Origin: a virus
Direction: 5' to 3' (one strand)
IMG/VR virus record: IMGVR_UViG_3300013005_000208
Span: 1 to 20,758 of that record
Length of the DNA stretch: 20,758 nt
Positions within the stretch are counted from its first letter, which is position 1. Each line of letters begins with the position of its first letter. Below are positions 1,407 to 19,578 of this stretch, piece after piece. The notes under the pieces were generated by a model that did not search any database, had not been told where the DNA came from, and was given only the letters and a program-made list of their open reading frames with translations. Position numbers and translations under genes: made by a program.

Positions 1407-1409
1407 GAT

Positions 1410-2216: not shown

Positions 2217-2226
2217 TTTTTTCTAT

Positions 2227-2478: not shown

Positions 2479-2485
2479 GTATTTA

Positions 2486-2491
2486 TCCTCT
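2486..2491 (-). promoter_or_regulatory. Shine-Dalgarno-like site of the 83-aa gene
   Basis: Reading on the minus strand, AGAGGA lies 7 bases upstream of the ATG at 2478, with TAAATAC in between. It is the only well-spaced purine-rich ribosome-binding site among the minus-strand genes here; the others have A-rich leaders. It supports the ATG at 2478 as the start. Confidence 0.5.
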
Positions 2492-2525
2492 TTCTAATTT
2501 ATAGTCGGAATCTAAGTTTATATTC

Positions 2526-4076
2526 TCACTGATCTGTTAAATTTACAAAACCACCAGTTACTCCAGCATTAAAATAAAATCCTTTATAGTCAGGTGTGTA
2601 AGTAATAGATACAGAAGATACCGGATTGCTAGTTCCAAATTCTATTCTTTTCTGCAGTATGGTTGCAATGCTACCTCCTGATATAGAATATGCAAGCCTT
2701 TGGTAATCATATAACAATCCAGAAAATGTAAATCCTGTTGCACCATTATGAATTCTGTAAGATGTTATCTCGTTAGGCTTTGCTATCAGTTCAGAAAAAT
2801 AAGGTGAAGGTATATTTGTATAAAAAACAGGATTACTATAAGATCCGTCATTGGTATAAGGATTTTGGTTCAGAGAACTTGGGAATTCTAATAGGATATC
2901 ATTTGCTCCATAAATATCAGGGGATGTTAAATTAACCTGATTTATATTGCCTGTTGTATTTCCTTCTACTGGGATCATTTTACATTGAACTGTCACAAAT
3001 GATTTTGTTAAATGTGATCCAGTAGATCCAGTTACTCCTATTACTACCTGCGAGTCTTGTTTGACTTTCAATAGGTTCCTACCATTTACGTCGTTAATAG
3101 ATATAAGCGGTAAAGATCCAGTAGGTCCGCTAGAAACACCTAGAAGTGCAACATCAAAAAGTGATCCTCTCACTGTTAGCCTGCTCTGCCCAGTTGCACC
3201 AGAAGCTCCTAGCGTAACCGGTAGATTTATGGAATTGTCAGATCCCTTAAAAGTAGCATATTTCGAATTAACCTGGACTGTTGAGTTTGATGTTATGGAT
3301 ATTCCACCAGTAGCACTGGTAAATTCAGTGGATGTTCCTGAAATATAATTTAAGACATTTCCGGATAGATCTATAGTTCCATTGCTAGAACTAATATTAA
3401 GATCCGCCCCAGCGCTAATTTTTAAATCAGATACAGTGGAAAGATCCAAGCTATAATCTGCTCCGGTTGACCCCCACGAAAATCTAGGATAACCCGGTGA
3501 ATTTGTGGTTGTTTTAGAAAATCCTAATATAGATCCACCGTTAGTAGAACTATCGGTGGCTATTAAAACTTTTGACTGCAATGGATTTACGTTATCCGCA
3601 GTTAAAACCCGGTCCGCAAAAACAAAAGTTGTTTTTGTCGTATTAGGACCAGTTGCATTAATTACTACTGCGTTATATCCCGTTGCGCCTTCTGGCCCAT
3701 TTATCCCCTGTACACCAGTAAAGAATCCAGAAGTTCTAAGGCTTGCACCTGTATCTTGCCATCCGGCGGTTGGTCCGCTATAAATGTATATCTCGTCCTG
3801 ATTAGTCGGAGACGTATTAATCCAATAATCATAAGTTTGAGCACCTCCAGTCGATGGTGCAGTAGACTGCTGAAACCAATTGCTAGATCTTGTGCCAGTA
3901 GTTCCTGGGCTTCCATCGGGACCTATTCTACCAATAACCCCGGTTGCACCTCTTCCGCCATTGAATCCGGTTGCACCAAATCCACTACTTAGAATCTGAT
4001 CGAAGTTGAAATTAACCTTATCGATTATTTCATCCTTCGAATCACCAGGGAAGATATATTTATTATTGAATTTCAT
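2526..4076 (-). CDS. Collagen-like tail-fibre protein, paralog 3
   Basis: A 516-residue probable trimeric fibre. The N-terminal motif at about residues 11-33 (acidic helix, K-V-N-x-N-F-D-Q-I-L, then Gly) is shared with the next two upstream genes and looks like a docking module. Ten uninterrupted Gly-X-Y triplets follow (G34 to R63), then the conserved W67-F68 and D83-Y84-W85 linker, and a second short Gly-X-Y run at 121-133. After a shared block near 150-210 (FVFADR..., then P-x-F-S-W) comes a Ser/Thr/Asn-rich beta-repeat shaft (about 215-300). The C terminus has a FYFNAGVTGGF ending like its paralogs. Gly-X-Thr-Gly motifs recur outside the collagen part. The ATG overlaps the TAA stop of the upstream paralog by one base (TAATG), implying translational coupling. 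A receptor-binding or decoration role is inferred; no enzyme motif is visible. Confidence 0.85.
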   Translation of the reverse strand: MKFNNKYIFPGDSKDEIIDKVNFNFDQILSSGFGATGFNGGRGATGVIGRIGPDGSPGTTGTRSSNWFQQSTAPSTGGAQTYDYWINTSPTNQDEIYIYSGPTAGWQDTGASLRTSGFFTGVQGINGPEGATGYNAVVINATGPNTTKTTFVFADRVLTADNVNPLQSKVLIATDSSTNGGSILGFSKTTTNSPGYPRFSWGSTGADYSLDLSTVSDLKISAGADLNISSSNGTIDLSGNVLNYISGTSTEFTSATGGISITSNSTVQVNSKYATFKGSDNSINLPVTLGASGATGQSRLTVRGSLFDVALLGVSSGPTGSLPLISINDVNGRNLLKVKQDSQVVIGVTGSTGSHLTKSFVTVQCKMIPVEGNTTGNINQVNLTSPDIYGANDILLEFPSSLNQNPYTNDGSYSNPVFYTNIPSPYFSELIAKPNEITSYRIHNGATGFTFSGLLYDYQRLAYSISGGSIATILQKRIEFGTSNPVSSVSITYTPDYKGFYFNAGVTGGFVNLTDQ

Positions 4077-5677
4077 TATATTTCGTATAAAAAGCCACTT
4101 GATTTATTTGCCTCGTAAAACACTTTCCAAGATCCTGTTGTTCCAGCATTTTCATTTCTGAAAACATGGAAAGTTATGGATGAGCTTGGGAATGGTAATA
4201 TCTTCCATTCATTTGATTTAGCGATATTCGGATATGGATTGCCAACCGAAGAGTAGGTTCCGATACCCACTGCATAAAAAGGTTTGCCGTCAGAATTACT
4301 ATTTACTACAAGTGAAAAACTTCTATTCTCGCCTATAGTTTGTGATAAAGGATTTACTGAAATGCTGGCACCATATACACCAAGGAAGCTTACGCCGTTG
4401 TATGGATCTCCCAACGTTCCCGCTCCTGTTGTTCCCGGAGGGGTCAATATAGCATCGTTGAAATATATTAGATTCCTATCTCCAGTTGGTCCTACCTCTG
4501 CTGGACAAACACTAAGCCAATTCACATAATATGCTGTTCCGCCATATGAATATGCACCGGTTGATCCTGAAGATATTGGTGATCCTATTTCCTGGAAAGC
4601 TTGCGTTAATTGGGTTGTTCTGGTCACACCTAAAGCATCAGTTGATAAAATAGGATTGATGTAATTAGTATTGCTTAGAACTACAAGATTCTTATTTGAA
4701 GCATTTGATCCATTTGTAACGTATTGTATATCAATAACTCCTCCCCTGGATGTGTTATTAGTAGCTGTTAGCCCAACACCGGAAGAGGTATTGTTAGTTA
4801 TAATTAGAGATCCAGAAACATTTATTGTTTCTGCACCAATGTATAGATTAGATGAATTCAAAGAAAAATCCTGATCCGGACAATTGAAATTCATGTACCC
4901 CTTTGTGATTCCGGTAAATGATGTTGCTGTGCTTATTGATACGTTCCCAGCAGATCTCATATCTAATATTCCTGTCTGGCTTATTAAATCCAGGGAGGAT
5001 GAATTAATTGTAAACCCTCCGCCAGTTACGCCCCACACCAAGCTATAATCATTCGAAGAATTTGGATTCTCCCATTCAAAATAAGGATGCTTATTGGAAT
5101 CGGTAGAACTACCATCCATATATTCAGATTTACCGAATTCTAATATATGCTTACCTAACTGCCCCTGCGGTGATATTAAAAACTTTGAATATTGCTGGTT
5201 TCCATATGCTTTACTAACCAGAGAATCTGATATAACCAATGTGTTGGAATACGGGGTGGGTGAAAACTGTATGATTGCATTTTTAGAATTATCCCCATTC
5301 CTATTAATTATACCATTAAAACTCTTAAAATACTGTGTTCCAGTAAGATTTAATCCACTTGTTCCCCAGGAAGCTCCATTGTAAACATAATCAATAAAAT
5401 CCTCCGAAGAGTCTACCCAGTGGTCACCGGTAGTATATCCAGTAGCTCCCGTTGGAGGCGTGTTTGCAACAAACCATATTGATCCTCTGTTTCCTGGAGG
5501 ACCTATGTCTCCATTTGGTCCGGTCTGTCCTGGTGATCCTTGAGAGCCAGGTTGTCCGGTTTTACCATAGGTTCCGCCACCTGCAGATAGGATGCCACTG
5601 AAATTCTGATTCAGTTTATTGATTACATCCTCTTGGGTGTCTCCCTTGGTAAGTCTTAAAAGCTTTAAATCAGCCAT
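4076..5677 (-). CDS. Collagen-like tail-fibre protein, paralog 2
   Basis: A 533-residue paralog of the genes on either side. It has the N-terminal docking motif at residues 12-35 (GDTQEDVINKLNQNF...GGG), then eleven Gly-X-Y triplets (G35 to about I67) ending in GNRGSIWF. The linker with GDHW (84-87) and a GASW turn follows. The middle block (about 150-215) has LVISDS and HPYFEW segments that align with FVFADR/PRFSW and FVFSDG/HPIWRW in the paralogs. The shaft is a beta-repeat region of short strands (about 220-330). The C-terminal domain ends in GSWKVFYEANKSSGFLY, resembling the other fibres. Gly-X-Thr-Gly motifs appear at GPTG and GTTG near the C terminus. The gene is 33 bases from the upstream paralog and overlaps the downstream one by one base. 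Function as a structural adhesin is inferred from family-like architecture. Confidence 0.85.
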   Translation of the reverse strand: MADLKLLRLTKGDTQEDVINKLNQNFSGILSAGGGTYGKTGQPGSQGSPGQTGPNGDIGPPGNRGSIWFVANTPPTGATGYTTGDHWVDSSEDFIDYVYNGASWGTSGLNLTGTQYFKSFNGIINRNGDNSKNAIIQFSPTPYSNTLVISDSLVSKAYGNQQYSKFLISPQGQLGKHILEFGKSEYMDGSSTDSNKHPYFEWENPNSSNDYSLVWGVTGGGFTINSSSLDLISQTGILDMRSAGNVSISTATSFTGITKGYMNFNCPDQDFSLNSSNLYIGAETINVSGSLIITNNTSSGVGLTATNNTSRGGVIDIQYVTNGSNASNKNLVVLSNTNYINPILSTDALGVTRTTQLTQAFQEIGSPISSGSTGAYSYGGTAYYVNWLSVCPAEVGPTGDRNLIYFNDAILTPPGTTGAGTLGDPYNGVSFLGVYGASISVNPLSQTIGENRSFSLVVNSNSDGKPFYAVGIGTYSSVGNPYPNIAKSNEWKILPFPSSSITFHVFRNENAGTTGSWKVFYEANKSSGFLYEI

Positions 5678-5710
5678 GAGTTTATATATCCGAATTCCAA
5701 ATAGGAGGGT

Positions 5711-7234
5711 TTAGAAAAGACGACCTGAACCAAAAGCAGTATAATAGAAAGCCTTAGACCCTGTTAGAGAAGTTCCGCTGTTTCTATAGAACACTATATC
5801 AATCTCATTAACCCCAGGTGACAAGCTAATAAGCTGTGTTGACATTGGTGGGGATCCGGTTAAATATCCTAGATATCTGATCGGTAAAGAATTAGAGGAA
5901 ACCTGCTGTAATATTTTTATTCTTATACATTGATTGGTCTCTATTAGTCTGGCTAGGTTATTATCAACTCCAGTTCTCATATCAAGTGCAACACCCAAAT
6001 TATTGGTTGGGTTTACGTTTAAAATGAATGTGTTATTTGGCCCCAGTGTATTAAATCCTAGATAATACCAGGAAACTAGTGTACCGCTGTAATTAGAGAT
6101 ATAAGAAGTATTTGAATCAAACGTAGGAGTGTTTTTATACAGTGCGTTTTTTGTCATGTATATTGTTCCATCAGTTTTTACTTCCGATAGAGTTACACCA
6201 TCAGTTGATGCTTTATATAATGAATTTCCGCCAGTTGCTGATCCGGTAGAGCCTATCTGAATAACCCCGCCATTTGTGTTTTGTACCTTAAGTCCAACAT
6301 TTCCATAAACAGAATCTCTGACACCAGGAAGATCTACCGAGATATCTAGATTTAATCTATTTGTAGAAAATTCATTCTGTGATAGAGTAAGATTATTCGA
6401 TATGATAGATATTTCATCCTCTGCGGATAAAACAGATGCTCCAGATCCATTTAAAGATATAGATCCAGCTAATGAAGTAACATAAAGATTAGAATTAGCA
6501 GTAAGTCTTAGATTTTGTAATGCACCGCCGGTAATTCCATCTCTTGCTGCAATATTTAAGCTATCAGCAGGAACTGAAAAAAGAATATTGTAATCAGTTG
6601 ATCCGCCGGTCCATCTCCAGATGGGATGCTTGTAGTATCCGCTTGGTCCTAAAACCGTAGTTTCCGCCCTACCAAATTCCATAACTGGGTAATCATTTAC
6701 TGAAGGATCAGTAGTAACTAAGAAGTTTGTATAGTCTGGATTAGTAAGCACTGCAGAAGGAGTACCGTCACTAAAAACGAATGTGTTCTGTATAGGATAA
6801 GTTGAGCTTTGTACTATTGCTCGATACCCAGTATCCAATCCGGTTGGTCCTTTAACACCAGTTACAAGAGAAAATTCCTCCTGCGGTAGAAGTGAATATC
6901 CAGTTTCTATCCATCCAGATGGACCAAATACGAAAAGAGGTTTATCTGAACTTTCTGAGTCTATCCAGTAATCACCTTCCACTGAGATATCTCCATATCC
7001 ACCAGTTGGTGATGCTATGCCGCCGACAAACCATCTAGTTCCTCTTGGACCAGAAAGTCCGGTTGGTCCTTTTAGTCCAGAGTTTCCAATAGATCCAGTT
7101 GGGCCGGTTGGTCCAATAGGACCTTGCACGCCTCCTTTAGATTCCGCTATTTGTTCAAAATTTGGATTTAGCTTTGCAACTAAATCCAGATCAGTGTCTG
7201 TGATATTAAATGAAATTATAGATGGTCCTGGCAT
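5711..7234 (-). CDS. Collagen-like tail-fibre protein, paralog 1
   Basis: A 507-residue protein, first of the three fibre paralogs in transcription order. The N-terminal motif (residues 13-35, TDLDLVAKLNPNFEQI...GG) matches the other two. It leads into eleven Gly-X-Y triplets (G35 to R67), the most collagen-like of the set, with GPTGPTG and GPRGTRWF. The conserved GDYW linker (87-90) and a GPSGW turn follow. The middle has FVFSDG and a KHPIWRW block, then beta-strand repeats (about 225-290) and a C-terminal beta domain ending SKAFYYTAFGSGRLF. The start ATG lies 2 bases after the TAA of the giant upstream gene. Its leader is A/T-rich with no Shine-Dalgarno. In known phages, collagen-like segments form rigid triple-helical rods; trimerisation here is inferred. 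No depolymerase or peptidase motif was seen. Confidence 0.85.
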   Translation of the reverse strand: MPGPSIISFNITDTDLDLVAKLNPNFEQIAESKGGVQGPIGPTGPTGSIGNSGLKGPTGLSGPRGTRWFVGGIASPTGGYGDISVEGDYWIDSESSDKPLFVFGPSGWIETGYSLLPQEEFSLVTGVKGPTGLDTGYRAIVQSSTYPIQNTFVFSDGTPSAVLTNPDYTNFLVTTDPSVNDYPVMEFGRAETTVLGPSGYYKHPIWRWTGGSTDYNILFSVPADSLNIAARDGITGGALQNLRLTANSNLYVTSLAGSISLNGSGASVLSAEDEISIISNNLTLSQNEFSTNRLNLDISVDLPGVRDSVYGNVGLKVQNTNGGVIQIGSTGSATGGNSLYKASTDGVTLSEVKTDGTIYMTKNALYKNTPTFDSNTSYISNYSGTLVSWYYLGFNTLGPNNTFILNVNPTNNLGVALDMRTGVDNNLARLIETNQCIRIKILQQVSSNSLPIRYLGYLTGSPPMSTQLISLSPGVNEIDIVFYRNSGTSLTGSKAFYYTAFGSGRLF

Positions 7235-7236
7235 AA

Positions 7237-10200
7237 TTATATCTTATTTATTCCGAATGTAAATGTTAAAGACCAGTTTGAGTTAGGGTTAACATCGTAT
7301 GTAAATGAATAGATTAATTCATTCTGTTTTACGAGATCTAATCCATCCTCGTAAACATATCCATCCTTATATCTGTCTTTACCTAGAAGGTCACCTATAA
7401 CATATCTTAATCCGCCGTTATTGGTGTCTGGATTAGGAACTTTTTTAACATACAAATTGAATAAGCTTGCTGTGTAGATAGGTACTACGTTTAATTCGAT
7501 ATAAGATCTGATATCATCCTCAAGACTATCAGGATTACCAACCCCAAATTCCGATATTATATTATTTTGGAAAACGTCTCTGATACCAGAGTTTAATAAA
7601 AATCTTCTAAGCATTCGATCAACTCTTAAAACCCCGACCAATTGGTTAGATTGTTCTAAAACCTGATAGAAAACTTCAACGTCAGGATAGATGCTCTGAT
7701 CCAAAGATGCAAGATCTACCCCGATTAATGCTGTTTCAAGTTGTCCTATTCCCGATCCGGAATCTGCCATAGGTATATTTTGTATTAATGGCAACGAAGC
7801 TAATGCCTGAGCATTAATCTCATCAACATTTGGGTTACCTATAGTTCTGGAAACCGGTAAGGTTATGAAAGTTGTAAGACCTATTTCTTGAGGGGTCTGC
7901 ATTATTTTAGAACCAAAGAAAGTAGGGTATTCACGCATTGATCTTGTTCCCGCAACTGGTGTTTCTGAATTATAATTCGAAAACAAGTTATAGTATCCAG
8001 GATCCCACGTAGACCAGAATATAGAAAAATCTTTCTTTGCGATCGGTGTTATACCTATCAAAGGATAAACAGCTCCTTGTGGAAGGTTTGCAGCAGCGTC
8101 TAAAAGTCCCTTGTTTTTACTTACCTTAGTATAGCAAAGATTCCTGATCAGACCGAATCCGTTTTGTTCTGGCGCAAATGTGCAGTTTCTAAAACTAAGA
8201 TCAACTGAATTATAGCCTGAAACGTAATCGCTTTTATCGTTCTTAAAAAGAATGAGCTTTCTAGACAATGGCTCGTATCCTCCTGTATATCTAGTTAGAT
8301 CCGAAGAATACTGGGATCCACCTTTAACTATCCCGTAGCTTGTTGTGGTGTTAACACCAAGAGTTGCTGGTCCAGTTGTAGATGGTACAGGATAAAGTCC
8401 ATTTGATCTGCTTATGTAGCTAGGCTTTAAAATACCTATATTCAGTGTATTGCTTGACTCTACTGTTTGTGAAGTAGAAGGATTCCAATAATAACTTGAA
8501 TACTTAATATAAGGACTAAGATTATTAAATCTTTTGGTTATCTCAGCCACCGATATTCTCTTCATAATAAAGTTGAAGTAGTTAGCTCCACCCGCAAGCT
8601 GTACAACAGGTTTACCGTCATATTTAGATTTACTACCAATTGGTATAGTCGCTGGTGAAGTTGGCGAGAATGGAAGGTCGAATATGTAAGAAGGATTGTC
8701 TATAGGTCCGAAATTAACAAACGACTGTGATCTTCCAACCGGCCAAGGGTATGTTGATGCGATCTGTGTAACATAAAAACTACCATCCCCAGTAGGACCA
8801 ACTAATCCAGTAGCTCCGGTAGGATAGTATAAATTTATTTCTTCTCTTAAATCCGAATCATAATCGGGATTCGGTATAGAATAGATTGTTCCGGGATCGG
8901 TTAAAGAAGTTACAGAGCTTGATGAAGTTACGCTAAGATCTAATCCAACGCTAAGTTTAATATCACCTATGCTATATAAAGAAGATCCACCAGTAGCTCC
9001 AGTAAGCCCAACTAGATTATCTTTCTCCTTGTCTATTAGTGAATACATTAAGACGTGATCCAAATACGGATTTCCTCCGGTAGGACCAGTGTGTCCAATA
9101 TCAGAAGCCCTATAGTCTTTCATTACAACCGTGCAAAGTAAAAGTACAAATTGCTGCGTTGAATTTTCTATAACCTCGTAGGTAACAGGCGACTGTATTG
9201 CATTAGGATCTTCGTCTACTATACGGAGTAAGGCAGAAAATTTATATCCCTGGTATCCCCTGTAATTCGAAACATACCTATCCAAATCGGTTGAAGGATT
9301 TGGTACGTTGCTTCTTTTCTTAAACTGTACCTTGACACCTCTAAATAAGGTCTCGTAAAATCCAGTGGTGGAATTAAATGCTAACGGAGTAAAGAATTCT
9401 TTCGTCTGATTTGCAGAGTTAGAATAGTTACCAGTATAATCGGTTCCTAAAGCGGTAAAAGAATCGCTGAAATATAATGCATTTGCTGGATCCGCACTTC
9501 TTAGTGTGTCTAAATCAACCGCAGAAGGAAGATATCCTTTTTGTGTAGCAAGTGCGCTAGGCGGGAATTGTTTAGGAACTCCCTCTAACACAAACCATTC
9601 GTGTGTTAAATAATTAGGATCAGGGGTTTCTTTCTCTAGACTAGGTGAAAAATTAGTGCTAGAAAAAGCTGGACTTAAATTAAGTCTATAAGGATTTCCT
9701 CTTGCATCTGTTCCACCTGTATAAACCCATTTATTGACAGTAGGAACTATCCTCGAATAATTGGATCTCTGTGTATTATAGTTTTCTTCCAAATAATCAT
9801 ATTCGGAACTAAGTTTTCCTGAGATAAACTGGAATTCTTTTGGCGTCATTTTTTGGTCTGCACCTGGACTGAGAAGTGACTCTATGCCCAAGAATCCTGG
9901 GAATTTACCAAGATCAGTCTCGTAGGGGACAGGCACATCATAGGTTGTAGCTAAATCAACATATTTAAGTTTTGTAAATTTCGCTGGGCAAACTACGGAT
10001 GGTGACGATCCAATAACATTATCCACAAATATGCTAGTACCGAATAATCCTATAAAAACCTTACCAGCATTATATACAGTTCCAGCATAGGTAATAGACC
10101 CAGACTGAACGAGATATTTTTCGCCTTCCACTATCGTTCCCGATTGATTAGGTAACAATTGGAAATATCTAAAAAATTCTGCTGTTGGGGTTGTTGAATA

Positions 10201-12711
10201 TTCAGAGCTAAAAAAGTCGAAGTCAAGCTCCTTAGTATCAAAGAAAGTGTAAACACCAGCTGACAATTCAGCCATTTTAAAAACATTAAAATGACTATTA
10301 CTACCAAGATCTATTACTTGGTTATCATCTTCTATCGTCGCAACCAGCAGTGTCTCGTAATTACCCCAGCCGGATGCAAATCCGTTTACAAAAACAGGTA
10401 AATCTACATACTTGGATATCTCATTAATGTAAGAATAACCTTGTTTAGTCTGGATCCATCTTTCCTTAGTGATAGCTTCGGAATCATCCACATTAAATAC
10501 AACCCTATTGGTAGAATACTGCGTTCCACCCTTGAAATCAGCTAACCCCGATATTTGCGTTATATCAACATCGTTGATTTTAACGAGACCAGCTAATGAT
10601 TGATCAACCTGATAATACTCGGTCCAATTTGTATTGCTGGTAGGGTCCTGATTTCCTGCTATATTTGCAGCTATGCTAGTATTACTTAGCCAATATTTGT
10701 TTCCATATTCAACTATTACTCCAGAATCGTATGACGAGGTTGAATCCCATACACCACGATATAATAGGGAGAAATCCTCCCAGTTTGAGTAAACTGCTAC
10801 TTTAAATCTTGAATTCAAATCACCAGGATTTACCAATCTAATAACGGAATCGTTTTTAGAAGGAGCTGAATACCACGTAACGCTAGTGATCTCTGCAGCA
10901 GATGCAGAAAAACTACTAGCTATAGAATATATTCCATCATTGGAGCTGGCAACCCCATTGAAATAATAGTTGTTACCCGTTGCGTAATGATCGCCAGGAA
11001 TCCATCTTAATTGTGATCCACTAAAGTTGCCGTTGGATATTAAATCATATCTTTCCTTAACGTTTCCTCTAGATCCCTCGGGCCAAACTATTTTAAAAGT
11101 AAGGTTTATGTCCGCCGGTATTTCCTGCAGAAATGTAATTGCAGTATAAGAACTGCCTGGGTCATTAGGAAGATATCCGGAAAATGATCCTACCTTATCA
11201 TCTGGTCCGCTGAAATCCAAAAGATTAACCTGCTGATCTGTTATAACTAATGTCCCAGCCGTAGCACCAACAAATCCAGTTGTTCCGAATCCCGCAGTTG
11301 CACCAATCCATGGTCCAAATGTCTCATAATCGGGTATATTTTGTGAATCCGCAGATCTTTTTAAAGAATAGAAATTATCAAACTTATCTGTGATATAAAA
11401 TAATTTCTCCGGATCATTCTGGTTTATATCCAAACTTCCTGGGATCCATCCAGTAACACCTTCGTAGAATAATCTTACCCCGCCGGTTGAACTCTGGTAA
11501 GCAGACACATCATCGAAGTAATATCCTAAATTATTTCTGCTTGGTTGAGGAAGATTGAAATTTCCATCAAGATCCTTATACTTCCAGAAAAAATCACCAT
11601 TCAATTTAAAATTACCGAGATCATTCCTTGAAACATACATTCCAAAATAACGATTTATAGTGTATAGATCCGTATCAGGATCATTAAAAAGGAATTCTAA
11701 GTTCAAAAGATTCGAACAAATTATACCATTTCTTTCAAATCCACCAGTTACTGTTGATTCGAAATCTATCATTGGGATAGAATCAGTGCTATTATAATAT
11801 GAATCTAATATTTCTCCTTTTTGCCCAAGAACGCCGGTCTGGTAATTAACTCCATTCCAGAATGTGTATGCGTTCCCAACCCCAAAATTAATAGGTGAAG
11901 GGTTAAAACCAGGATCTCTAGTTAGATCTCTGATATATTTTCCGATAGTTGAACTTTCTCTAAGATCGAAAGTAGCTACTGTTTGAGCATTAGGTAATAC
12001 TTGATTGGTAAAAAAATCACCAGGATTTACTACATCAGGATAGAAAGCTAATTCATCAAATAAAGCGACTGACCCAGTTCCTGAAATAACCGAATAGGAC
12101 GAGTAGTTATCAATACCATCTATATAGGATCCGGCAGAATACTCAACTGGATTTCCACTAAGATCTACACCATACGTTACCTTGAAAATGTCGGTGGAAT
12201 ATGGTGACTGGATTAGCTTATACTTTTTACCGCTCTCAATTACAGATACATTTGTTGTATAAGGATAAGATATAGGATCAGGAAGCTTAAATACCACAAA
12301 AAAATCGGGTATAACATCCTTAATCCATAATGGTGCAAAATATCTAAAATTCTCCGTATAATTTTTATCAATTAGCGTAGAAGAACCAGAGGCATAAAAA
12401 AAATCATACTGCTCGCCAAATTCGGTAGCGGACTGACGACTTCCAGTTGTAAATTGGGCTGCTTCAAAAATAACCTCGGTTGGAGTTGTACCTAGCTTAA
12501 AAAAGTTATAAACGTCCACCGCATAAGGATTCTCGCCGGTAACTTCAAACTTCTTGTACCTTTTGTCAGAAAGTACAGTATTGACGTCCATTGAATTCAG
12601 CCACACCTTAGCTGTGGAGTCAACGGTAATTTTAAAGTTACCGTTGATTTTAGGGTTTGTCCTTACCACTTGGAAGGACGTATTATAATCGTAAAGTTTC
12701 TCTCCAGCCAT
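7237..12711 (-). CDS. Giant virion structural protein with CBM5/12-like module
   Basis: At 1824 residues this is the largest gene in the window. I do not recognise the overall family. The N terminus (MAGEKLYDYNTSFQVVRTNP then KINGNFKITVDS) introduces a long beta-rich protein with many Tyr, Phe and Asn residues and no signal peptide or membrane span. Residues about 655-696 (W-D-S-T-S-S-Y-x-x-G, V-x-Y-x-x-K-Y-W, then NW) fit the aromatic spacing of CBM5/12-type carbohydrate-binding modules. Gly-X-Thr-Gly clusters occur near residues 416-421, 467-485, 1205-1213, 1234-1241 and 1295-1308. The C terminus (SWSLTFTFGINKI) is strand-like. The gene lies 19 bases after the 1220-aa gene and 2 bases before the fibre trio. 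Size and position suggest a baseplate, tail-tip or fibre-docking protein; this is inferred. The ATG start is preceded by TAAATACACATAAAAA, with no Shine-Dalgarno. Confidence 0.85.
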   Translation of the reverse strand: MAGEKLYDYNTSFQVVRTNPKINGNFKITVDSTAKVWLNSMDVNTVLSDKRYKKFEVTGENPYAVDVYNFFKLGTTPTEVIFEAAQFTTGSRQSATEFGEQYDFFYASGSSTLIDKNYTENFRYFAPLWIKDVIPDFFVVFKLPDPISYPYTTNVSVIESGKKYKLIQSPYSTDIFKVTYGVDLSGNPVEYSAGSYIDGIDNYSSYSVISGTGSVALFDELAFYPDVVNPGDFFTNQVLPNAQTVATFDLRESSTIGKYIRDLTRDPGFNPSPINFGVGNAYTFWNGVNYQTGVLGQKGEILDSYYNSTDSIPMIDFESTVTGGFERNGIICSNLLNLEFLFNDPDTDLYTINRYFGMYVSRNDLGNFKLNGDFFWKYKDLDGNFNLPQPSRNNLGYYFDDVSAYQSSTGGVRLFYEGVTGWIPGSLDINQNDPEKLFYITDKFDNFYSLKRSADSQNIPDYETFGPWIGATAGFGTTGFVGATAGTLVITDQQVNLLDFSGPDDKVGSFSGYLPNDPGSSYTAITFLQEIPADINLTFKIVWPEGSRGNVKERYDLISNGNFSGSQLRWIPGDHYATGNNYYFNGVASSNDGIYSIASSFSASAAEITSVTWYSAPSKNDSVIRLVNPGDLNSRFKVAVYSNWEDFSLLYRGVWDSTSSYDSGVIVEYGNKYWLSNTSIAANIAGNQDPTSNTNWTEYYQVDQSLAGLVKINDVDITQISGLADFKGGTQYSTNRVVFNVDDSEAITKERWIQTKQGYSYINEISKYVDLPVFVNGFASGWGNYETLLVATIEDDNQVIDLGSNSHFNVFKMAELSAGVYTFFDTKELDFDFFSSEYSTTPTAEFFRYFQLLPNQSGTIVEGEKYLVQSGSITYAGTVYNAGKVFIGLFGTSIFVDNVIGSSPSVVCPAKFTKLKYVDLATTYDVPVPYETDLGKFPGFLGIESLLSPGADQKMTPKEFQFISGKLSSEYDYLEENYNTQRSNYSRIVPTVNKWVYTGGTDARGNPYRLNLSPAFSSTNFSPSLEKETPDPNYLTHEWFVLEGVPKQFPPSALATQKGYLPSAVDLDTLRSADPANALYFSDSFTALGTDYTGNYSNSANQTKEFFTPLAFNSTTGFYETLFRGVKVQFKKRSNVPNPSTDLDRYVSNYRGYQGYKFSALLRIVDEDPNAIQSPVTYEVIENSTQQFVLLLCTVVMKDYRASDIGHTGPTGGNPYLDHVLMYSLIDKEKDNLVGLTGATGGSSLYSIGDIKLSVGLDLSVTSSSSVTSLTDPGTIYSIPNPDYDSDLREEINLYYPTGATGLVGPTGDGSFYVTQIASTYPWPVGRSQSFVNFGPIDNPSYIFDLPFSPTSPATIPIGSKSKYDGKPVVQLAGGANYFNFIMKRISVAEITKRFNNLSPYIKYSSYYWNPSTSQTVESSNTLNIGILKPSYISRSNGLYPVPSTTGPATLGVNTTTSYGIVKGGSQYSSDLTRYTGGYEPLSRKLILFKNDKSDYVSGYNSVDLSFRNCTFAPEQNGFGLIRNLCYTKVSKNKGLLDAAANLPQGAVYPLIGITPIAKKDFSIFWSTWDPGYYNLFSNYNSETPVAGTRSMREYPTFFGSKIMQTPQEIGLTTFITLPVSRTIGNPNVDEINAQALASLPLIQNIPMADSGSGIGQLETALIGVDLASLDQSIYPDVEVFYQVLEQSNQLVGVLRVDRMLRRFLLNSGIRDVFQNNIISEFGVGNPDSLEDDIRSYIELNVVPIYTASLFNLYVKKVPNPDTNNGGLRYVIGDLLGKDRYKDGYVYEDGLDLVKQNELIYSFTYDVNPNSNWSLTFTFGINKI

Positions 12712-12730
12712 TTTTTATGTGTATTTAGGA

Positions 12731-15700
12731 TTACCCGTTTAACACCCCGCTTCTACCTTGTTGTGCTGATCCACCAGCTCCTGTAAGTGGTGAACGCAAA
12801 TTATCTGTTTTGTATCTTCCTGTTAATTGGATGTCAAAAGAGAAAGTATCTGAATAGCGAGGCTTAATGTCTATGCCTATTGTTTTAGAATATACAATAT
12901 TAGTTAGATTACCGGCCAATCTAAATCCACCTACATAACCTAATTTATCTACTGCTCTGAATTGGAATATAACAGGGACCAAAATGCTATTCGAAGTTCC
13001 TGTACCTATTATAGTGGAGGAAAGCGAAGAACTGCCTGAAACCTGAATTGAACTATTAGTAGGAGGAGCTAAGAAAAGATATGCACCGCAAGAATACTTC
13101 CCAATTAGGTATTCGTCATTAGGGTCAAATCCAAGCTTTTGCGCATACATTGCATCAGTTCTATTTGATCCAGAAACACCGGTAACAAATGGTGTTGTTA
13201 CCTGGCTGTAGCCCAATTGCTTGTAATAATCATTTGAGTTTGTATCTGTTTGGAAATACAAGGACTGTCTGAATGCTGGATAAACTATAGATCCATTTGA
13301 GTAATTTGGTTTAACCAATTCATCAAATCCGGTTCCAGCTCCATTATTCAAAGCAGGATGACTTGTGTGTATGCAGAATTCACTTAAAGGACCATTTCCA
13401 ATTGGTGTTTTAGCACCAGTTGCTCCTGTATATCCACCAATCCAAACTAATGAATTAGATCCACCGCTTAAAGAACCAGTTGGACTAATAAGTGCGGGAT
13501 TGTGCGGGATTAAAGAGTTACCATTTACAGGGATTGCACCAGCATAATCATAATTAGATGCGTAAGGTGCATTGTTTTCCACGTATAGAGACTGATCACC
13601 TCCAACATTCTTGAATCTTGGATATAACCACTGGCTATAAAGATTTGCAGAAGCGTATGGTGGTGCCTGTGAACTTGACATATTATCAGGACTTCCGGTT
13701 GGACCTATAATATCACCAGGTGAAAGAGCAGTTTGGCTCATTGGAACCTGATCATATCTTAGATTCTGATAATATCCAGGAAGTGGAGGTGTGCTATCAT
13801 TAACTTTAACACTCAAAGCTCCTGGTAACAAACTAGCCAATTCTAGAGGACTCGAAGCCACGTTAGAAATCTTAAGACTCAATACAGTAGAACTGATCTT
13901 TCCTGCGTCGGTTGTTAGTGAATTTGTGAATTGTGAGGAGTAGCTAGGTACTTCGATAGAAATAACGGATCCGGGTAAGATTGACCCTGTCGGTATCTGA
14001 AGATCTGAACTAACAATTTCAACATTGATTTGTCCCACGCTTTTAGTAACAGCAGCTCTTAGAGAATCAACTTGATTCTGGAGGTCAATTAATTTCTGAT
14101 ATAGAGAAACTACCGATCCATCATTCCCGAAAAATCCTGATGCTATACCATTTGCTGTGTGATAAAATGTTTTATTATTTGTAATAAATTGTTCAGACAA
14201 GTGCTGGTTAAGACCTTGGGCTGACAATTCCTGCTTCATGATAACCAAAGCCTGATCAGTAGTATTTCCCAAAACTGTAGATAATGGGGAAAGAACGCTA
14301 AGGTTTGCAGGGAAATCTATTATAACAGAAGGTGAATAAGGTGAAATTAAAGGATTGTCCGGCCAGCCAGCTTCAGAGATAGAAGCTATCTGGATTTCAA
14401 CTTTCTCGCCCTTTGTAATTGGAATATCCAATTGGTTAATATTAACCTCATCTGCATTGTCGGTTGCTTCCGGTGCCCAAACATAGGTTCCTGAATTAAC
14501 ATCATAGAATTTCTTACGAATCTCTGATTTATATACAACCCAATTTGAAAATGCGCCGGTTTTCTTTTGCCCGTCATTATCGGTAAACTCACTTTGTTGG
14601 GTTGGCTGAACAGCACCGCCCTGACTCAGATATCTGTATCTAATTTGGAATTGGATAACTGATTGAGTACCGGTTGCAGGTGAAACCTGAGGAGCTGGAA
14701 TTGCCCAGAATCCTCTAATCCTATACTTAGGTGCTTCAGCTAATTGAGGCGTATCCAAAGCAGATGTATTAATGCTTTGTACAACTGATTCATAAAGCTG
14801 AGATTTTTGATTCCTCTGTATAGTTAATGAATTAAGCTGTGATTGTAAAGAATTAAGCTGAGAAGGATCAACTACCTGATTGAAAGCTGCATCCTGAACA
14901 GGTGATATAGAAGATATGCTTACCTCTTGATTTGCTGAAGTATTAGCTAGTCCGACAAAACTTGTATTTGCTGGAGCGGTAGAACTTGTTAAACTGTTTA
15001 CCTGTGATCTAACCCTATTGATTGCAACATCTGTTTGCTCGATCTCGCTTTTAAGCTGTGCTTTTTGTGAGATAAGATCCGTTAATTGTTGAGAACTTGT
15101 ATTATCGGTCAATTGTTTATTGATCTGATAAACATTGAAATTTGTTGTTTCTAAGGTTGGAGGGGAAGGCAAAATACCCTGCAGAGCAGAAATTTTACGT
15201 TCTTTAGCCATACCAAAAAGAATCTGACCTATATCAGCAACTTGCGAATTATAATACTGCTCAAGTGTTTGTGTCCCGCTTGCAGTAGTGATGGTTAGTT
15301 CGTTACTGAAGAAAACAACACCAGTTGACCATTGAGAACCTATTAGATTAAAATTATCATCCAATGTTTTAAAGAAAACGCCAGTTCTTTCATTAAATCC
15401 AACGTTAACATCGATAGTTTTTGGAGAGAATTGGCTGGATACAAAAGTTAAACTATTAGCACCGATTGAAATAGGTTGATACCCGGCTATTCTTAATACC
15501 TGAACTGATCCTTGGTCTCTATCGATTGATATAATTCTGTATCTGCTACCGTCATTTGTAGCAAGCACATCTTTTACATCCAGAGTTTTACCTCCCTGTA
15601 CACCAGATGTAACATCCGTGTAATTGAGAGTGTCAAGAATATAGTTTCTTCTAGTTTCTTGCGAGGTAGCCCCGTTTGCATCAGTAACATTAACAACGTC

Positions 15701-16393
15701 ATCTGTAATTCCAACTACACCAAAATTACCAACATTTGCTAAAGTTCTTAATGGAAGCTGAAGAATGTCTTCGTCCACGAAGTAATTAATGCCTGCATCA
15801 GTTAATGCTGTAACGAATTGATTATAGGTAAGATCATTTCTGCCTCTTAGGTTAGTGTCAAAAAATTGCTTATCTACGTCAGTAATAGTATTAGCTATGA
15901 TTCTCCTACATAATATTCTATCTGCGTTCTCGATAAGTATCTTATCGCTCTCAGAAAGCTGTGCTATCTGATTGGTTAGATCAATCTGTATGTATAAAAG
16001 AGGTGTTAAGAAGCTTTCAAAAAACCAATTATTTTTTGCTGCAAATGTGCTAGGTGTAGTTAGACCTGTCAGAGGGGCAGGATCTTTCAGTGCTTGAGCT
16101 TTATAGATCTGAGAATAAGTTCCATCGGCATTTCTTACAGTAGATGCGTTTGTCCCTAATCCGGCTAACGCTTCTACATTATTATCAATCCGATCGATCT
16201 GATTCTGCAAATATCCAAACCCAGGTACACTTACATTCTTAGGTGTCCCCCTTTCGTCTAGTATTTGAATTTGTACACTCTCGTTTGTCGAGGTTGCAAC
16301 TTGGTTTAAGCCCTGAATTATTTCAAGGGCATTTGTCTGAAGTCTCAGAAACTGAGCTATTAATGAGCTTATTGAGTTTTGCGTAGCTGACAT
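12731..16393 (-). CDS. Large virion structural protein with coiled coils and FN3-like segment
   Basis: This 1220-residue protein is of unrecognised family. The first 200 residues are largely helical (QFLRLQTNALEIIQGLN...). Residues about 425-470 and 510-540 form strong coiled coils (repeated QLNSLQSQLNSL). Residues about 555-697 resemble a fibronectin type III-like fold: alternating strands (IQFQIRYRYLS, FSNWVVYKSE) then EIQIASISEAGWPDNP and SPYSPSVIIDFP, which match the usual FN3 G-strand region in style. A second helical segment lies at about 762-786, and a beta-rich C-terminal half carries Gly-X-Thr-Gly motifs (near residues 895 and 990). No enzyme motif was seen. The start ATG is 2 bases after the TAA of the 736-aa gene, so the two are probably coupled. 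A central baseplate or tail-assembly role is inferred from size, coiled coils and operon position. Confidence 0.85.
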   Translation of the reverse strand: MSATQNSISSLIAQFLRLQTNALEIIQGLNQVATSTNESVQIQILDERGTPKNVSVPGFGYLQNQIDRIDNNVEALAGLGTNASTVRNADGTYSQIYKAQALKDPAPLTGLTTPSTFAAKNNWFFESFLTPLLYIQIDLTNQIAQLSESDKILIENADRILCRRIIANTITDVDKQFFDTNLRGRNDLTYNQFVTALTDAGINYFVDEDILQLPLRTLANVGNFGVVGITDDVVNVTDANGATSQETRRNYILDTLNYTDVTSGVQGGKTLDVKDVLATNDGSRYRIISIDRDQGSVQVLRIAGYQPISIGANSLTFVSSQFSPKTIDVNVGFNERTGVFFKTLDDNFNLIGSQWSTGVVFFSNELTITTASGTQTLEQYYNSQVADIGQILFGMAKERKISALQGILPSPPTLETTNFNVYQINKQLTDNTSSQQLTDLISQKAQLKSEIEQTDVAINRVRSQVNSLTSSTAPANTSFVGLANTSANQEVSISSISPVQDAAFNQVVDPSQLNSLQSQLNSLTIQRNQKSQLYESVVQSINTSALDTPQLAEAPKYRIRGFWAIPAPQVSPATGTQSVIQFQIRYRYLSQGGAVQPTQQSEFTDNDGQKKTGAFSNWVVYKSEIRKKFYDVNSGTYVWAPEATDNADEVNINQLDIPITKGEKVEIQIASISEAGWPDNPLISPYSPSVIIDFPANLSVLSPLSTVLGNTTDQALVIMKQELSAQGLNQHLSEQFITNNKTFYHTANGIASGFFGNDGSVVSLYQKLIDLQNQVDSLRAAVTKSVGQINVEIVSSDLQIPTGSILPGSVISIEVPSYSSQFTNSLTTDAGKISSTVLSLKISNVASSPLELASLLPGALSVKVNDSTPPLPGYYQNLRYDQVPMSQTALSPGDIIGPTGSPDNMSSSQAPPYASANLYSQWLYPRFKNVGGDQSLYVENNAPYASNYDYAGAIPVNGNSLIPHNPALISPTGSLSGGSNSLVWIGGYTGATGAKTPIGNGPLSEFCIHTSHPALNNGAGTGFDELVKPNYSNGSIVYPAFRQSLYFQTDTNSNDYYKQLGYSQVTTPFVTGVSGSNRTDAMYAQKLGFDPNDEYLIGKYSCGAYLFLAPPTNSSIQVSGSSSLSSTIIGTGTSNSILVPVIFQFRAVDKLGYVGGFRLAGNLTNIVYSKTIGIDIKPRYSDTFSFDIQLTGRYKTDNLRSPLTGAGGSAQQGRSGVLNG

Positions 16394-16395
16394 GC

Positions 16396-18606
16396 TTACG
16401 GGTTATTTGTTAAAGATTGTCCAACTGCATCTACTTGGAATACCAGATTTTCTGGGTCCACACAGACGATATCGATTACTGGTATGTTTGCCCAAGTAGC
16501 AAAATCGGTTTTGTCTAAAACCAAGATTGTTTTTGAGTAAGGAACATTTGTAGGGGATGATAATGGGTATCTACCTACTGCATTTGTTAAGAATGTAACA
16601 ACAAAATCATTCGGATATACCTCATCACCAAAAGAGAATCTAAAGGTTTGCCCGCGCTTCCACTGGAAGTTGGTATCGTCTATTCTGATAGTTAGATCCT
16701 GCGATAAACTTAGAGGTGATCCATTATTGACATGTTTATAGTAATTACCAAAAGGAAGTAATGAGAGAATGTTATTCGAAGTGGTACTTAAAGTTACGAC
16801 ACCTTTATTTTTTCCTATCGTATAATTCTGTGTGTCATTCGAGATAGTAACCTCGTTTTCTATAGTTTTATCAACCAATATACCAATACCTTGCTTGATA
16901 ACATCCAGATTATAGGATATTTCTATAGAAGGTATGTCGTTATTGACGATTGCTCTAATCAATTCATAGTTCTGATTGATAAGACCTATTATAGATTGCG
17001 TATTATTAAATAATGCTTGGTTTGCTGAGATCGTTTGCTCCAAGAAATCTATTCTTTGACTTAGATCTAAAGAGGAATCTGATGTAAGAACTAGATTTTC
17101 AACTTTAGTAAGTCTTTGTTCTATACCAATTACCTGACTTGCACCATTATTAAGGGTTGAGCTTGCATCCTGAAGGACGTTTACTGCATCCATAAACATA
17201 GAAAGCGAGAATGGCGAGTAATCGTTAATAGCCTGTTCTACACCAGTTTGGTCTACATCTACATCAAACTTAAGATTGATCTTGAATCCATAAGAGTTAC
17301 CGTTTAATTTCGTAACAATATTTGGTTTATTCTTGGTCAATCTAGGGATATAAGTTTCACCGCCAGATGTTACAACATCATCTAAAAATAGAACACCGTA
17401 AAGGTTCGTAGCAGAATCCGATGGATTAGCAGGATCATATACGTCGTAATAAATTAAAACAGCGTTAAAATCAAAATTATTAGCATCAGCAGTTGCATTA
17501 AACTCACTAAATGTTGATATAGATGGGTTTGTTGCTATTCCATAATACGAATCAGGATCAAAATCAATTCCGATAGAATCTAGCTTAGTCCTCGTATAAG
17601 TTAAACTTGTATAAGGAGGTGTAGCTGTATTAGTTTTTGTGATTATTAATGATGTAGGATCGGTAAATAATGCATCGTTAAAGTAGGTATTTGCTACCGC
17701 TCTAGGTGAATACCAGTTTCCAGATCCAGTAGTACCATTTGCTGTGTCCGTATATGTTGCACTAGGCTGTCCTAGCACATCATCGTCAAATATAGCAAGG
17801 TTTGTTAATCCACTAGGATTAGTTTCAGTATAGGCTCTACCAGTTAGGTATTCGTCATTCAAAGGATCTGATGGATTATTAGTCCATGTATAATCCATTG
17901 TGTAATTCTGATCTACAACGTTTTTAAATAAAACTGTAGGTGTTGATCCATCTTTAGTTGGTACATACACATAAACCTCAGTGTAAGCGTTGTTTTCGTT
18001 TCTTACTGAGTTAACTATATCAAGTTCTCCAACATACTGAACCACATTATTATAAACAGCACCAGTTAAACCAAAAGATCCGGTTACACCCGCTACAGGA
18101 TCACCTTCTACGAATCTTTTTTGGGTGATTGGTATATTGTTAGTAACTACGATAGAATTCTGATTCAGTGTGGAAGCTACTTCCGTAGAAGATGCTGGTT
18201 GGAATCTGATAGCTCCTAGCTCTTTTAACCACTTAAAGAAAACCCTTTCAGAAACGTTTTGCTTCAAGTTTGAATCATACTCATCAGAACTTAAGATGGT
18301 TGTTTCAATATTCAAACAGTAGCTTTGAAAAGACTGTGAGAAAGCGATGTTTCCATCGGCAGGTACAATCACATTAGATCCTGAACTCCAATCCAAGAAA
18401 GCTGAATCTGGAGCGGGTAATTTAATTGTATTCCCGGTTGTATCGAAATAATCAATATTGGGAATGTTCAATAATGCAAATTTAGAAAATTTAAATTTGC
18501 TAGTGGAATTATTAAATGTGAATGATAAATCCTCAGCAGCCGATGAGAAGGTATAAAACGTTCCTCCCGTTAGCTGTAATGGTTGAATAAAGGGGGTTTT
18601 AGCCAT
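16396..18606 (-). CDS. Virion structural-like protein with internal coiled coil
   Basis: This 736-residue protein is of unrecognised family. It begins MAKTPFIQPLQLTGGTFYTF and has a beta-rich N-terminal half with many Asp, Asn and Thr residues. An acidic, Tyr-rich middle (about 340-460) includes FDVDVDQTG. A coiled coil spans about residues 493-535 (IEQRLTKVENL...RIDFLEQTI), and a beta-rich C-terminal domain follows (about 590-736). No signal peptide, membrane segment or catalytic motif is seen. Gly-X-Thr-Gly motifs occur near residues 173-182 and 291-294. The gene follows the 301-aa fibre-like gene after 18 bases and precedes the 1220-aa gene by 2 bases. GGAG sits almost directly on the ATG, too close to be a normal Shine-Dalgarno. 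A tail, neck or baseplate role is inferred from context. Confidence 0.8.
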   Translation of the reverse strand: MAKTPFIQPLQLTGGTFYTFSSAAEDLSFTFNNSTSKFKFSKFALLNIPNIDYFDTTGNTIKLPAPDSAFLDWSSGSNVIVPADGNIAFSQSFQSYCLNIETTILSSDEYDSNLKQNVSERVFFKWLKELGAIRFQPASSTEVASTLNQNSIVVTNNIPITQKRFVEGDPVAGVTGSFGLTGAVYNNVVQYVGELDIVNSVRNENNAYTEVYVYVPTKDGSTPTVLFKNVVDQNYTMDYTWTNNPSDPLNDEYLTGRAYTETNPSGLTNLAIFDDDVLGQPSATYTDTANGTTGSGNWYSPRAVANTYFNDALFTDPTSLIITKTNTATPPYTSLTYTRTKLDSIGIDFDPDSYYGIATNPSISTFSEFNATADANNFDFNAVLIYYDVYDPANPSDSATNLYGVLFLDDVVTSGGETYIPRLTKNKPNIVTKLNGNSYGFKINLKFDVDVDQTGVEQAINDYSPFSLSMFMDAVNVLQDASSTLNNGASQVIGIEQRLTKVENLVLTSDSSLDLSQRIDFLEQTISANQALFNNTQSIIGLINQNYELIRAIVNNDIPSIEISYNLDVIKQGIGILVDKTIENEVTISNDTQNYTIGKNKGVVTLSTTSNNILSLLPFGNYYKHVNNGSPLSLSQDLTIRIDDTNFQWKRGQTFRFSFGDEVYPNDFVVTFLTNAVGRYPLSSPTNVPYSKTILVLDKTDFATWANIPVIDIVCVDPENLVFQVDAVGQSLTNNP

Positions 18607-18624
18607 CTCCGCGTTTTGCTTTTA

Positions 18625-19530
18625 TTAGAAAGTCATATTTGAGGAACTTAGAACTACCCACGATCCTCTTTGTGTACCCTGAGCACTTGCAATTCTTGGT
18701 TCCCATCTTAGGGTAATTGCTGACTGATATTGGCTTGCTGCTGGAACCACGATTCCTGCTGAAGGCCAATTTCCATAAGCAGCACTAGTATTAAACCCTG
18801 TGTAATAGCTGCTTGATCCAGTTACACCTGTGTAGATGTATCCGGTAGCTCCTTTTGTGTTTACGATAGTAACCGTAAATCCTGCGGGAACGTAAGATCC
18901 AGTAGAACCAGATGTCTCAGAAACTTTCATATAGAAACCTGTAGGACCGCAATCAGCATAAATTATATTCTCCGTTCCTGTTATTGCATAAGGCGAGTTA
19001 ACTGAACTAGTAACGCCACCACCTGAAAGTGCAGAGTTATTGGTAACCGGGAATTCTTGTCCTGCAGTTAATCCTGTAGTGTAAACCGTATTGCCAAGAA
19101 TGCTAAATCCAGCAGGTCCTAAAGCAAAAGACGAATTAACATTCAATCTTGAATTAAAGCTTGCTGTTCCGCCAGCTGTAAATGTTCCTGTGCCTGTTAC
19201 TGCAGTTGTTCCTGAGAATGATACAGAACCGGATCCTGTTAAGGTAGTTGTTGAAACACCATTAAATGTTGCTGCTCCGGTATTTAAAATTTGTGCTGAA
19301 GCTGTACTTCCAACCGGAACTTGCAACGAGTTAAACTGTCCGATCTTTGCAGTTACCCTACCAGTTGGTTGGGCAGAAACGTCCAATATTCCATTATTCA
19401 AATCTATACCAAAGTTGGTAGAATAAGAATTTGTCCAGTTCTGGAGTGTAATGAAATTGGAATTGATTGTTGTTCTGGATGCTGATATCGAATCGGACCC
19501 TAGAATTTCAGTGATGCTTATTGTAGACAT
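18625..19530 (-). CDS. Short fibre-like protein with Thr/Ser/Gly beta-repeats
   Basis: This 301-residue protein is first in the minus-strand operon. The N terminus (residues 12-31, S-D-S-I-S-A-S-R-T-T-I-N-S-N-F-I-T-L-Q) resembles the docking motif of the collagen fibres but is not followed by Gly-X-Y repeats. Residues about 72-130 are a Ser/Thr/Gly-rich array of short alternating strands such as TGSGSVSFSG and TGTGTFTAG, suggesting a beta-helical or trimeric shaft. The C-terminal domain (about 180-301) has YVPAGFTVTIVN, several Gly-X-Thr-Gly motifs and a terminal RGSWVVLSSSNMTF. That end is similar in style to the fibre C termini. It may be a minimal member of the fibre group, a short tail fibre, or a tail-tip plug; this is inferred. 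Its ATG at 19530 faces PhoH across 48 bases, so its promoter must lie there or inside phoH. Confidence 0.85.
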   Translation of the reverse strand: MSTISITEILGSDSISASRTTINSNFITLQNWTNSYSTNFGIDLNNGILDVSAQPTGRVTAKIGQFNSLQVPVGSTASAQILNTGAATFNGVSTTTLTGSGSVSFSGTTAVTGTGTFTAGGTASFNSRLNVNSSFALGPAGFSILGNTVYTTGLTAGQEFPVTNNSALSGGGVTSSVNSPYAITGTENIIYADCGPTGFYMKVSETSGSTGSYVPAGFTVTIVNTKGATGYIYTGVTGSSSYYTGFNTSAAYGNWPSAGIVVPAASQYQSAITLRWEPRIASAQGTQRGSWVVLSSSNMTF

Positions 19531-19578
19531 GGTGTGTTTTTTACGATTATTAAGTTGGAATATATATCATGCCTTTAT
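19531..19578. promoter_or_regulatory. Divergent intergenic region between fibre-like gene and phoH
   Basis: These 48 bases separate two head-to-head starts and are A/T-rich, including a TATATAT stretch and a T-run. Because both genes begin transcription or translation here, promoter elements for both probably overlap or extend into the neighbouring coding sequence. No confident -35/-10 pair, Bacteroidota-type -33/-7 pair or T4-like late motif is visible. No Shine-Dalgarno precedes either start. The call rests only on gene orientation. Confidence 0.35.

Follow-up and report, generated by a model that had tools for sequence, protein, structure and literature searches.

Why does one tetrapeptide, Gly-X-Thr-Gly (GxTG), recur in viral structural proteins that are otherwise unrelated? 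The question was raised by an earlier note on a 20,758-base virus record (hereafter the window), which reported the motif beyond collagen-like runs, in proteins of 301, 736, 1220 and 1824 aa. Using shuffled sequences, alignments of relatives and structural models, we examined how the motif is distributed, how its sites evolve and which enzyme might recognize it.

GxTG Is Over-represented in Seven Window Proteins

The reported distribution held up. Seven window proteins, all encoded on the minus strand, contain 43 GxTG motifs compared to 4.7 expected from within-protein shuffles (Poisson P about 1e-26), and each protein is individually significant against its own shuffles. Thirty of the 43 motifs lie outside collagen-like runs. 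For three fibres, which all carry short collagen-like Gly-x-y runs near the N terminus, shuffling predicts 0.7-0.9 motifs each. The 516-aa fibre (2526..4076), which has a weak PHROG tail-fibre match, contains 11, four at 2553-2564, 2733-2744, 3018-3029, and 3027-3038 and seven at 3117-3128, 3189-3200, 3462-3473, 3678-3689, 3894-3905, 3939-3950, and 3966-3977. The 533-aa fibre (4076..5677) contains eight (4133-4144, 4424-4435, 4481-4492, 4556-4567, 5021-5032, 5438-5449, 5519-5530, and 5555-5566), and the 507-aa fibre (5711..7234; PHROG tail-fibre match, E 5e-8) contains six (6242-6253, 6527-6538, 6839-6850, 7058-7069, 7094-7105, and 7103-7114). The best match to the Pfam Collagen family (PF01391), in the 533-aa fibre, scored 22.1 bits, below the cut-off of 27.2, and no other window protein matched this family.

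Three proteins of the tail/baseplate module also bear the motif. The 1824-aa protein (7237..12711), with homologues in LR756500 and other huge phages, contains eight motifs compared to 1.0 expected (8788-8799, 8806-8817, 8989-9000, 8998-9009, 9076-9087, 9085-9096, 11275-11286, and 11449-11460), including a GHTGPTGG that we located at residues 1206-1213, where the earlier note had reported it. The 1220-aa protein (p1220; 12731..16393), with homologues in Lak, PAU and Tenacibaculum phages, shows the weakest enrichment, three motifs compared to 0.56 expected (p 0.019; 13415-13426, 13424-13435, and 13694-13705), and the GPTG described for it is present at residue 897. The 736-aa protein (p736; 16396..18606) has three compared to 0.21 (17725-17736, 18061-18072, and 18079-18090), among them a GVTG at residue 173. 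The seventh, a 301-aa protein (18625..19530), has four compared to 0.68 (18817-18828, 18841-18852, 18898-18909, and 18937-18948). The PhoH, 268-aa, and 83-aa window proteins have zero GxTG. Since GxSG, GxNG, and GxAG are near their expected counts in the window proteins, with the exception of GxSG in the 507-aa fibre (4 compared to 0.8), the signal is specific for Thr.

Two proteins at the window edges had appeared to lack the motif, but this is an artefact of truncation. The left-edge protein is represented by its N-terminal 468 aa (3..1406, minus strand); its orthologue in a close relative, G001, has 798 aa and five GxTG, all past the portion in the window. The PKD-like piece (20273..20758, minus strand) comprises the last 161 aa of a 1200-aa protein that is complete in L001 (L001:1334-4936), an IMG/VR contig identical to the window in p1220 and p736. 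All 13 GxTG of this protein are upstream of the window edge. Between the tail genes for the 1200-aa and 301-aa proteins, on the opposite strand, is the PhoH gene (19534-20298), which shares 26 bases with the end of the 1200-aa gene; L001 is arranged identically. We found no sequence matches in named phages for the 516-aa fibre, the 1200-aa protein, or the 301-aa protein.

The Motif Has Spread through the Tail Module of One Group of Huge Phages

The large window proteins have homologues in the huge phages LR756500 (462 kb), Lak, Sphingomonas PAU, Tenacibaculum PTm1/pT24, Flavobacterium MaF61, and Chryseobacterium MA9V. In G001, a 116-kb relative whose p1220 is 76% identical to that of the window, 77 of 84 GxTG fall within a block of 11 tail genes (37.6-68.5 kb). 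GxTG is also present in the tail sheath of larger relatives, with five in G008 and eight in G011; the sheath was identified by PF17482 and PHROG matches. A literature search retrieved no report of a GXTG motif in phages.

We performed alignment-based scans of IMG/VR, which yielded about 150 loci. Loci with p736 at least 60% identical to that of the window (the high clade) contain 5-10 times the expected GxTG in the tail module. The ratio is mostly 1.2-4 in the next clade (the mid clade; p736 47-51% identical) and mostly 0.3-3 in more distant loci. The same order emerged when we ranked all three-residue patterns in an unbiased scan that masked collagen runs. In the high clade, represented by 305 proteins from 42 non-redundant IMG/VR relatives, G.TG ranked first (1016 compared to 181 expected, z 62); it ranked 68th in the mid clade (126 compared to 56) and 1946th in syntenic proteins of outgroups (27 compared to 19). 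As the enrichment survives masking, collagen runs are ruled out as its sole source. GxTG has spread across ten or more tail proteins of this huge-phage group that are otherwise unrelated.

High-clade counts also defined the motif. At the third position of G.?G, Thr occurs at 5.6 times expectation, Ser at 1.3, Asn at 0.5, and Asp at 0.6; a general richness in GxZG is ruled out, as Ser, Asn, and Ala at this position are near or below expectation. At the fourth position, Gly occurs at 5.6 and Ala at 3.5 times expectation, and G.TA is itself raised (364 compared to 103 expected). X is mostly A, V, P, G, S, L, T, or I, and hardly ever D, F, R, E, or K. The motif can be written more precisely as G-[A/V/P/G/S/L/T/I]-T-[G or, at lower frequency, A]. 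G.TP is over-represented in the mid clade (119 compared to 32) and outgroups (41 compared to 12) and is perhaps a separate motif.

A further shared element was noted in G001 (L014-L019), where many otherwise different proteins start with the leader M(K/R)xLxxFxxFxxNE (ORFs at 11272, 17936, 19709, 79604, 81613, 92148, 94172, 104640, and 106322; also L509:17328). We take this leader to be reminiscent of the capsid-targeting leaders of T4.

GxTG Sites Lie in Variable Loops and Turn Over

The sites had been described as resembling small insertions into loops, and alignments bear this out. Between window proteins and their G001 orthologues (48-85% identity), the G, T, and G are retained at most sites while X varies. 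In high-clade alignments of 39-42 members per protein family, the local gap fraction at sites was 6-41%, compared to 0.5-9% elsewhere. The site Thr was kept in 0.62-0.85 of aligned pairs, compared to 0.37-0.61 for other Thr residues, X was kept in only 0.27-0.57, and the joint persistence of G, T, and G exceeded that expected from independence. Positions turn over, with up to 75 distinct columns occupied in one family at about 11 sites per protein. Several GxTG loops, including the 736-aa protein loop at 18061-18090, are shorter or absent in G004, LR756500, and MaF61. An AF2 model of p736, of moderate confidence (mean pLDDT 69), places the sites in loops; a fold search with this model gave no PDB match with E <0.001.

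A motif or repeat at the DNA level is ruled out, since every synonymous codon is in use at the sites and we found no tandem repeats. The commonest 12-mer occurs four times in 60 sites. The Thr codon ACC is over-used in GxTG of the window and L001 (27 of 60, compared to a 17% background), an effect that is mild clade-wide (0.32 of motif Thr compared to 0.21).

The location in loops, the retention of G, T, and G while X drifts, and the turnover of positions suggest that GxTG evolves like a modification sequon. As judged from these alignments, the pattern resembles the evolution of glycosylation sites, unlike a fixed interface or gene conversion. Nor is GxTG an ordinary turn kept in distant homologues, since the motifs are missing from syntenic homologues of about 30% identity.

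High-Clade Relatives Encode a Candidate Glycosyltransferase

High-clade relatives encode a protein of about 420 aa with a GT2 glycosyltransferase (GT) domain and a TPR-like C terminus, 61-70% identical within the clade. A GT at least 61% identical was found in 19 of the 28 high-GxTG contigs searched, some 44-60 kb downstream of p736 in the tail module; in G001 its gene is at G001:92852-94078. All nine contigs without it extend for less than 43 kb past p736 on the downstream side and do not reach the GT position, so that it is present in 19 of 19 high-clade relatives whose contigs reach far enough. The gene is not on the 20,758-base window contig; we infer its presence in this virus from the relatives. 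It is absent from the complete LR756500 and MaF61 genomes and from the six outgroup contigs that are long enough (G014, G016, G017, G045, G046, and G047). Mid-clade contigs that reach the GT position carry a homologue at 44-49% identity or, in G040, a more diverged match (28%) at the corresponding position; the large GT-less mid-clade contigs G013 and G015 end before this position and are uninformative. Within the mid clade, tail-module GxTG counts fail to separate GT-bearing from GT-less contigs.

The GT is one of 18 G001 genes common to four high-clade genomes and missing in G013, G014, and LR756500. Since 18 genes share this distribution, phylogeny alone does not single out the GT, and the co-occurrence is confounded by descent. 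As a screen, PF00535 is unspecific, with matches in 10 of 12 genomes and six GT2 matches in G007. Among GT2-type enzymes, the protein of about 420 aa was alone in being recovered in all four high-clade genomes compared.

The candidate matches PF00535, a GT2-like GT-A domain, at 30.8 bits (cut-off 23.3), and its C terminus gives several TPR matches, all sub-threshold. In an AF2 model (pLDDT 88), residues 203-407 form helical repeats that resemble designed TPR proteins. Among PDB sequences, SunS is the best match and GmaR the next. With the model as query, the top six Foldseek matches are all SunS/ThuS (E 1e-15 to 1e-13), the best extending across most of the chain at a query TM of about 0.5, and the next family follows at E 1e-6. 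The score against the SunS family TIGR04195 (NCBIfam) is 30.8 bits, far under the cut-off of 350, and we therefore regard the candidate as a relative of SunS, not a member of its family.

Homologues of the Candidate Adjoin GxTG-Rich Genes in Bacteria and Co-occur with Thr-Rich Fibres in Unrelated Phages

Homologues of the GT at 33-43% identity occur in GTDB genomes of Proteobacteria, Actinomycetota, Chlamydiota, Myxococcota, and Bacteroidota. Among their neighbours, 35 of 243 ORFs within two ORFs of the GT are GxTG-rich, compared to 2 of 644 at greater distance (Fisher P 1e-18). In a smaller ORF subset, the other GxZG patterns tried scored zero apart from GxQG, with two. In Mycobacterium and Mycolicibacterium (L398, L401, L419, and L420), GT homologues adjoin glycine-rich proteins with 30-67 GxTG, which may point to Gly-rich surface proteins that are glycosylated in these genera. 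We regard this linkage outside the clade, a comparison of gene neighbourhoods, as the strongest support for the proposed role of the enzyme.

Unrelated phages show a related association. Tunturi_5 encodes a GT homologue (35% identity) six genes from a collagen-like fibre, and G061 and G065 encode homologues at about 50%; in the collagen-like fibres of these three phages, 60-81% of Y positions are Thr, compared to at most 21% in any single fibre of GT-less phages. In the 1469-aa Tunturi_5 fibre (L324:24804-29213), which contains 66 GxTG, GxT collagen-like runs alternate with modules of the FRGxWxxxTxYxxxDVVxxxGxxY type. Thr-richness is not universal, as the GT-bearing G007 and G008 also have Ser-rich fibres. 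Giant fibres of G007 (1-7798), G008 (3-6152), G011 (1-4878), and G015 (51147-55778) contain hundreds of Ser-rich Gly triplets (GTSGTSGSSG) with almost no Thr at Y, a second repeat chemistry beside GxT. In G068, which encodes a distant homologue, GxTG is not clearly enriched. A quick tree grouped 29 of 32 phage GTs.

In the mid clade, GxTG is concentrated in an unrelated protein of about 500 aa encoded roughly 6 kb downstream from the GT gene (L509-L518, e.g., L509:17328-18821). It contains GPTGPTGSTG linkers, and its C-terminal part appears L,D-transpeptidase-like by eye, with no Pfam match.

Comparison with Known Systems

SunS modifies a Cys of a small bacteriocin, and GmaR of Listeria is a flagellin glycosyltransferase. 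The SunS/ThuS S-glycosyltransferases (PDB 7msn, 7msp, and 7msk) are the best match to the phage GT in both fold and sequence and share its order of a GT2 domain followed by helical repeats; they differ in acceptor, as the phage enzyme would instead modify Thr on large proteins of the virion. The flagellin O-GlcNAc transferase GmaR (PDB 22ao) is the second-best PDB family by sequence, but its substrate and regulatory role are unrelated and the alignment is limited to the GT domain.

By domain plan, a close parallel is the O-GlcNAc transferase SgtA of Clostridioides difficile, which has a GT+TPR organization, is encoded beside the collagen-like bclA3, and adds beta-O-GlcNAc to Thr (PMC7157674). 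A peptide with just one GPTG or one GATG is sufficient in vitro (PMC7157674), and SgtA also accepts Ser in vitro. The phage GT likewise has an N-terminal GT-A and a C-terminal TPR portion, the units used by SgtA are those scattered through the window, and bacterial homologues of the phage GT also adjoin GxT-rich collagen-like genes. The systems differ in that the known substrate of SgtA is one collagen-like spore protein, whereas the phages have single GxTG over at least ten non-collagen tail proteins; the GT of the window clade lies about 44-60 kb from these genes; and the phage motif makes no use of Ser, GxSG being hardly enriched.

Collagen-like tail fibres of other phages resemble the window fibres in their short Gly-x-y runs near the N terminus, but most window GxTG (30 of 43) are outside such runs, and the Pfam Collagen score is under its cut-off. 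Mycobacteriophages such as Che8, as described in the passages of PMC11256854 that cite Freeman et al. (2023), encode GTs and have sugar-modified virion proteins. In those passages the target is the capsid, whereas here the predicted targets are tail proteins with a short sequon that can be read in the sequence.

Alternative Explanations

One reading that needs no modification is that GxTG serves purely as a structural turn, favoured where the tail proteins of this lineage form surface loops. The sites do lie in loops, where Gly-rich turns are common, and X is small or beta-branched. If GxTG were a structural turn, however, Ser, Asn, or Asp should be able to replace Thr, at odds with the third-position preferences described above; the corresponding loops of syntenic homologues lack the motif; and this reading would leave unexplained why the GT family is linked to GxTG-rich genes. 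We consider this reading unlikely. A modification by some other clade-specific or host enzyme, with a different target for the SgtA-like GT, is quite improbable in our view. It would fit the several GT2 genes of some genomes (six matches in G007), the mid clade with its GT and few tail sites, and the fact that the comparison covered part of the genome, but the GT of about 420 aa is the sole one recovered in all four high-clade genomes compared, its modelled fold is that of a polypeptide GT, and the GT family as a whole is coupled to GxTG-rich genes in bacteria.

The earlier note also raised an origin from the collagen genes, by micro-duplication or gene conversion. Identical triplets do occur in the fibres, and a paired site such as GLTGATG looks like a pair of collagen triplets. 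Leftovers of this kind predict common flanking DNA, but flanks are mutually dissimilar, all synonymous codons are used, tandem repeats are absent, and no 12-mer dominates; in addition, sites are retained between orthologues at 48-85% identity as X varies, and GxTA is enriched too. This origin has very little in its favour. Less likely still is a recognition or self-association motif for assembly, e.g., for a tail chaperone or partner fibre: although GxTG is mainly confined to one tail-gene run (77 of 84 in G001), free positional turnover (75 columns in one family) is ill-suited to a fixed interface, and such a motif has no known partner.

Discussion

Taking motif evolution, structural modelling, and the analogy with SgtA together, we think it likely that GxTG is a Thr O-glycosylation sequon on outer tail proteins, most likely written by a phage-encoded, SgtA-like GT2+TPR enzyme. 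The suggestion of Thr glycosylation in the earlier note thus gains support from how the motif appears to evolve and from the apparent co-inheritance of an SgtA/SunS-type GT. We infer both the action of the GT on GxTG sites and the identity of the sugar. Modification by the GT, whose gene lies some 44-60 kb downstream of the module, would take place in the host cytoplasm, before or during assembly of the tail; the targets would be baseplate-region proteins and fibres and, in relatives, also the tail sheath. The finished tail would bear many short sugars on exposed loops, and its exterior is probably sugar-coated. The benefit may perhaps be loop stability, protease protection, shielding, or adhesion at the host surface.

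Several observations count against this model. The mid clade has the GT (44-49% identity) yet few tail-module GxTG (126 compared to 56 expected), G068 has a distant GT homologue without clear GxTG enrichment, and SgtA takes Ser in vitro while GxSG is hardly enriched in the phages. Since a sister clade has the GT with few tail sites, the enzyme may have preceded its substrates. We favour, with somewhat more reserve, a history in which the huge-phage lineage adopted a bacterial-type polypeptide GT and then evolved the sequon repeatedly and independently in many tail-protein loops.

To our knowledge, phage virion glycosylation is seldom recognized because there has been no known sequon to search for. 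If our model is correct, GxTG together with an SgtA/SunS-type GT2-TPR gene would be a sequence signature for phages with sugar-coated tails. The signature would also predict which threonines are modified, a prediction that could be checked by mass spectrometry on cultured Tunturi_5. A modification motif would have spread by convergence across an entire structural module, and the SgtA/BclA3 pair, described from one spore former, would extend to many bacteria and phages.
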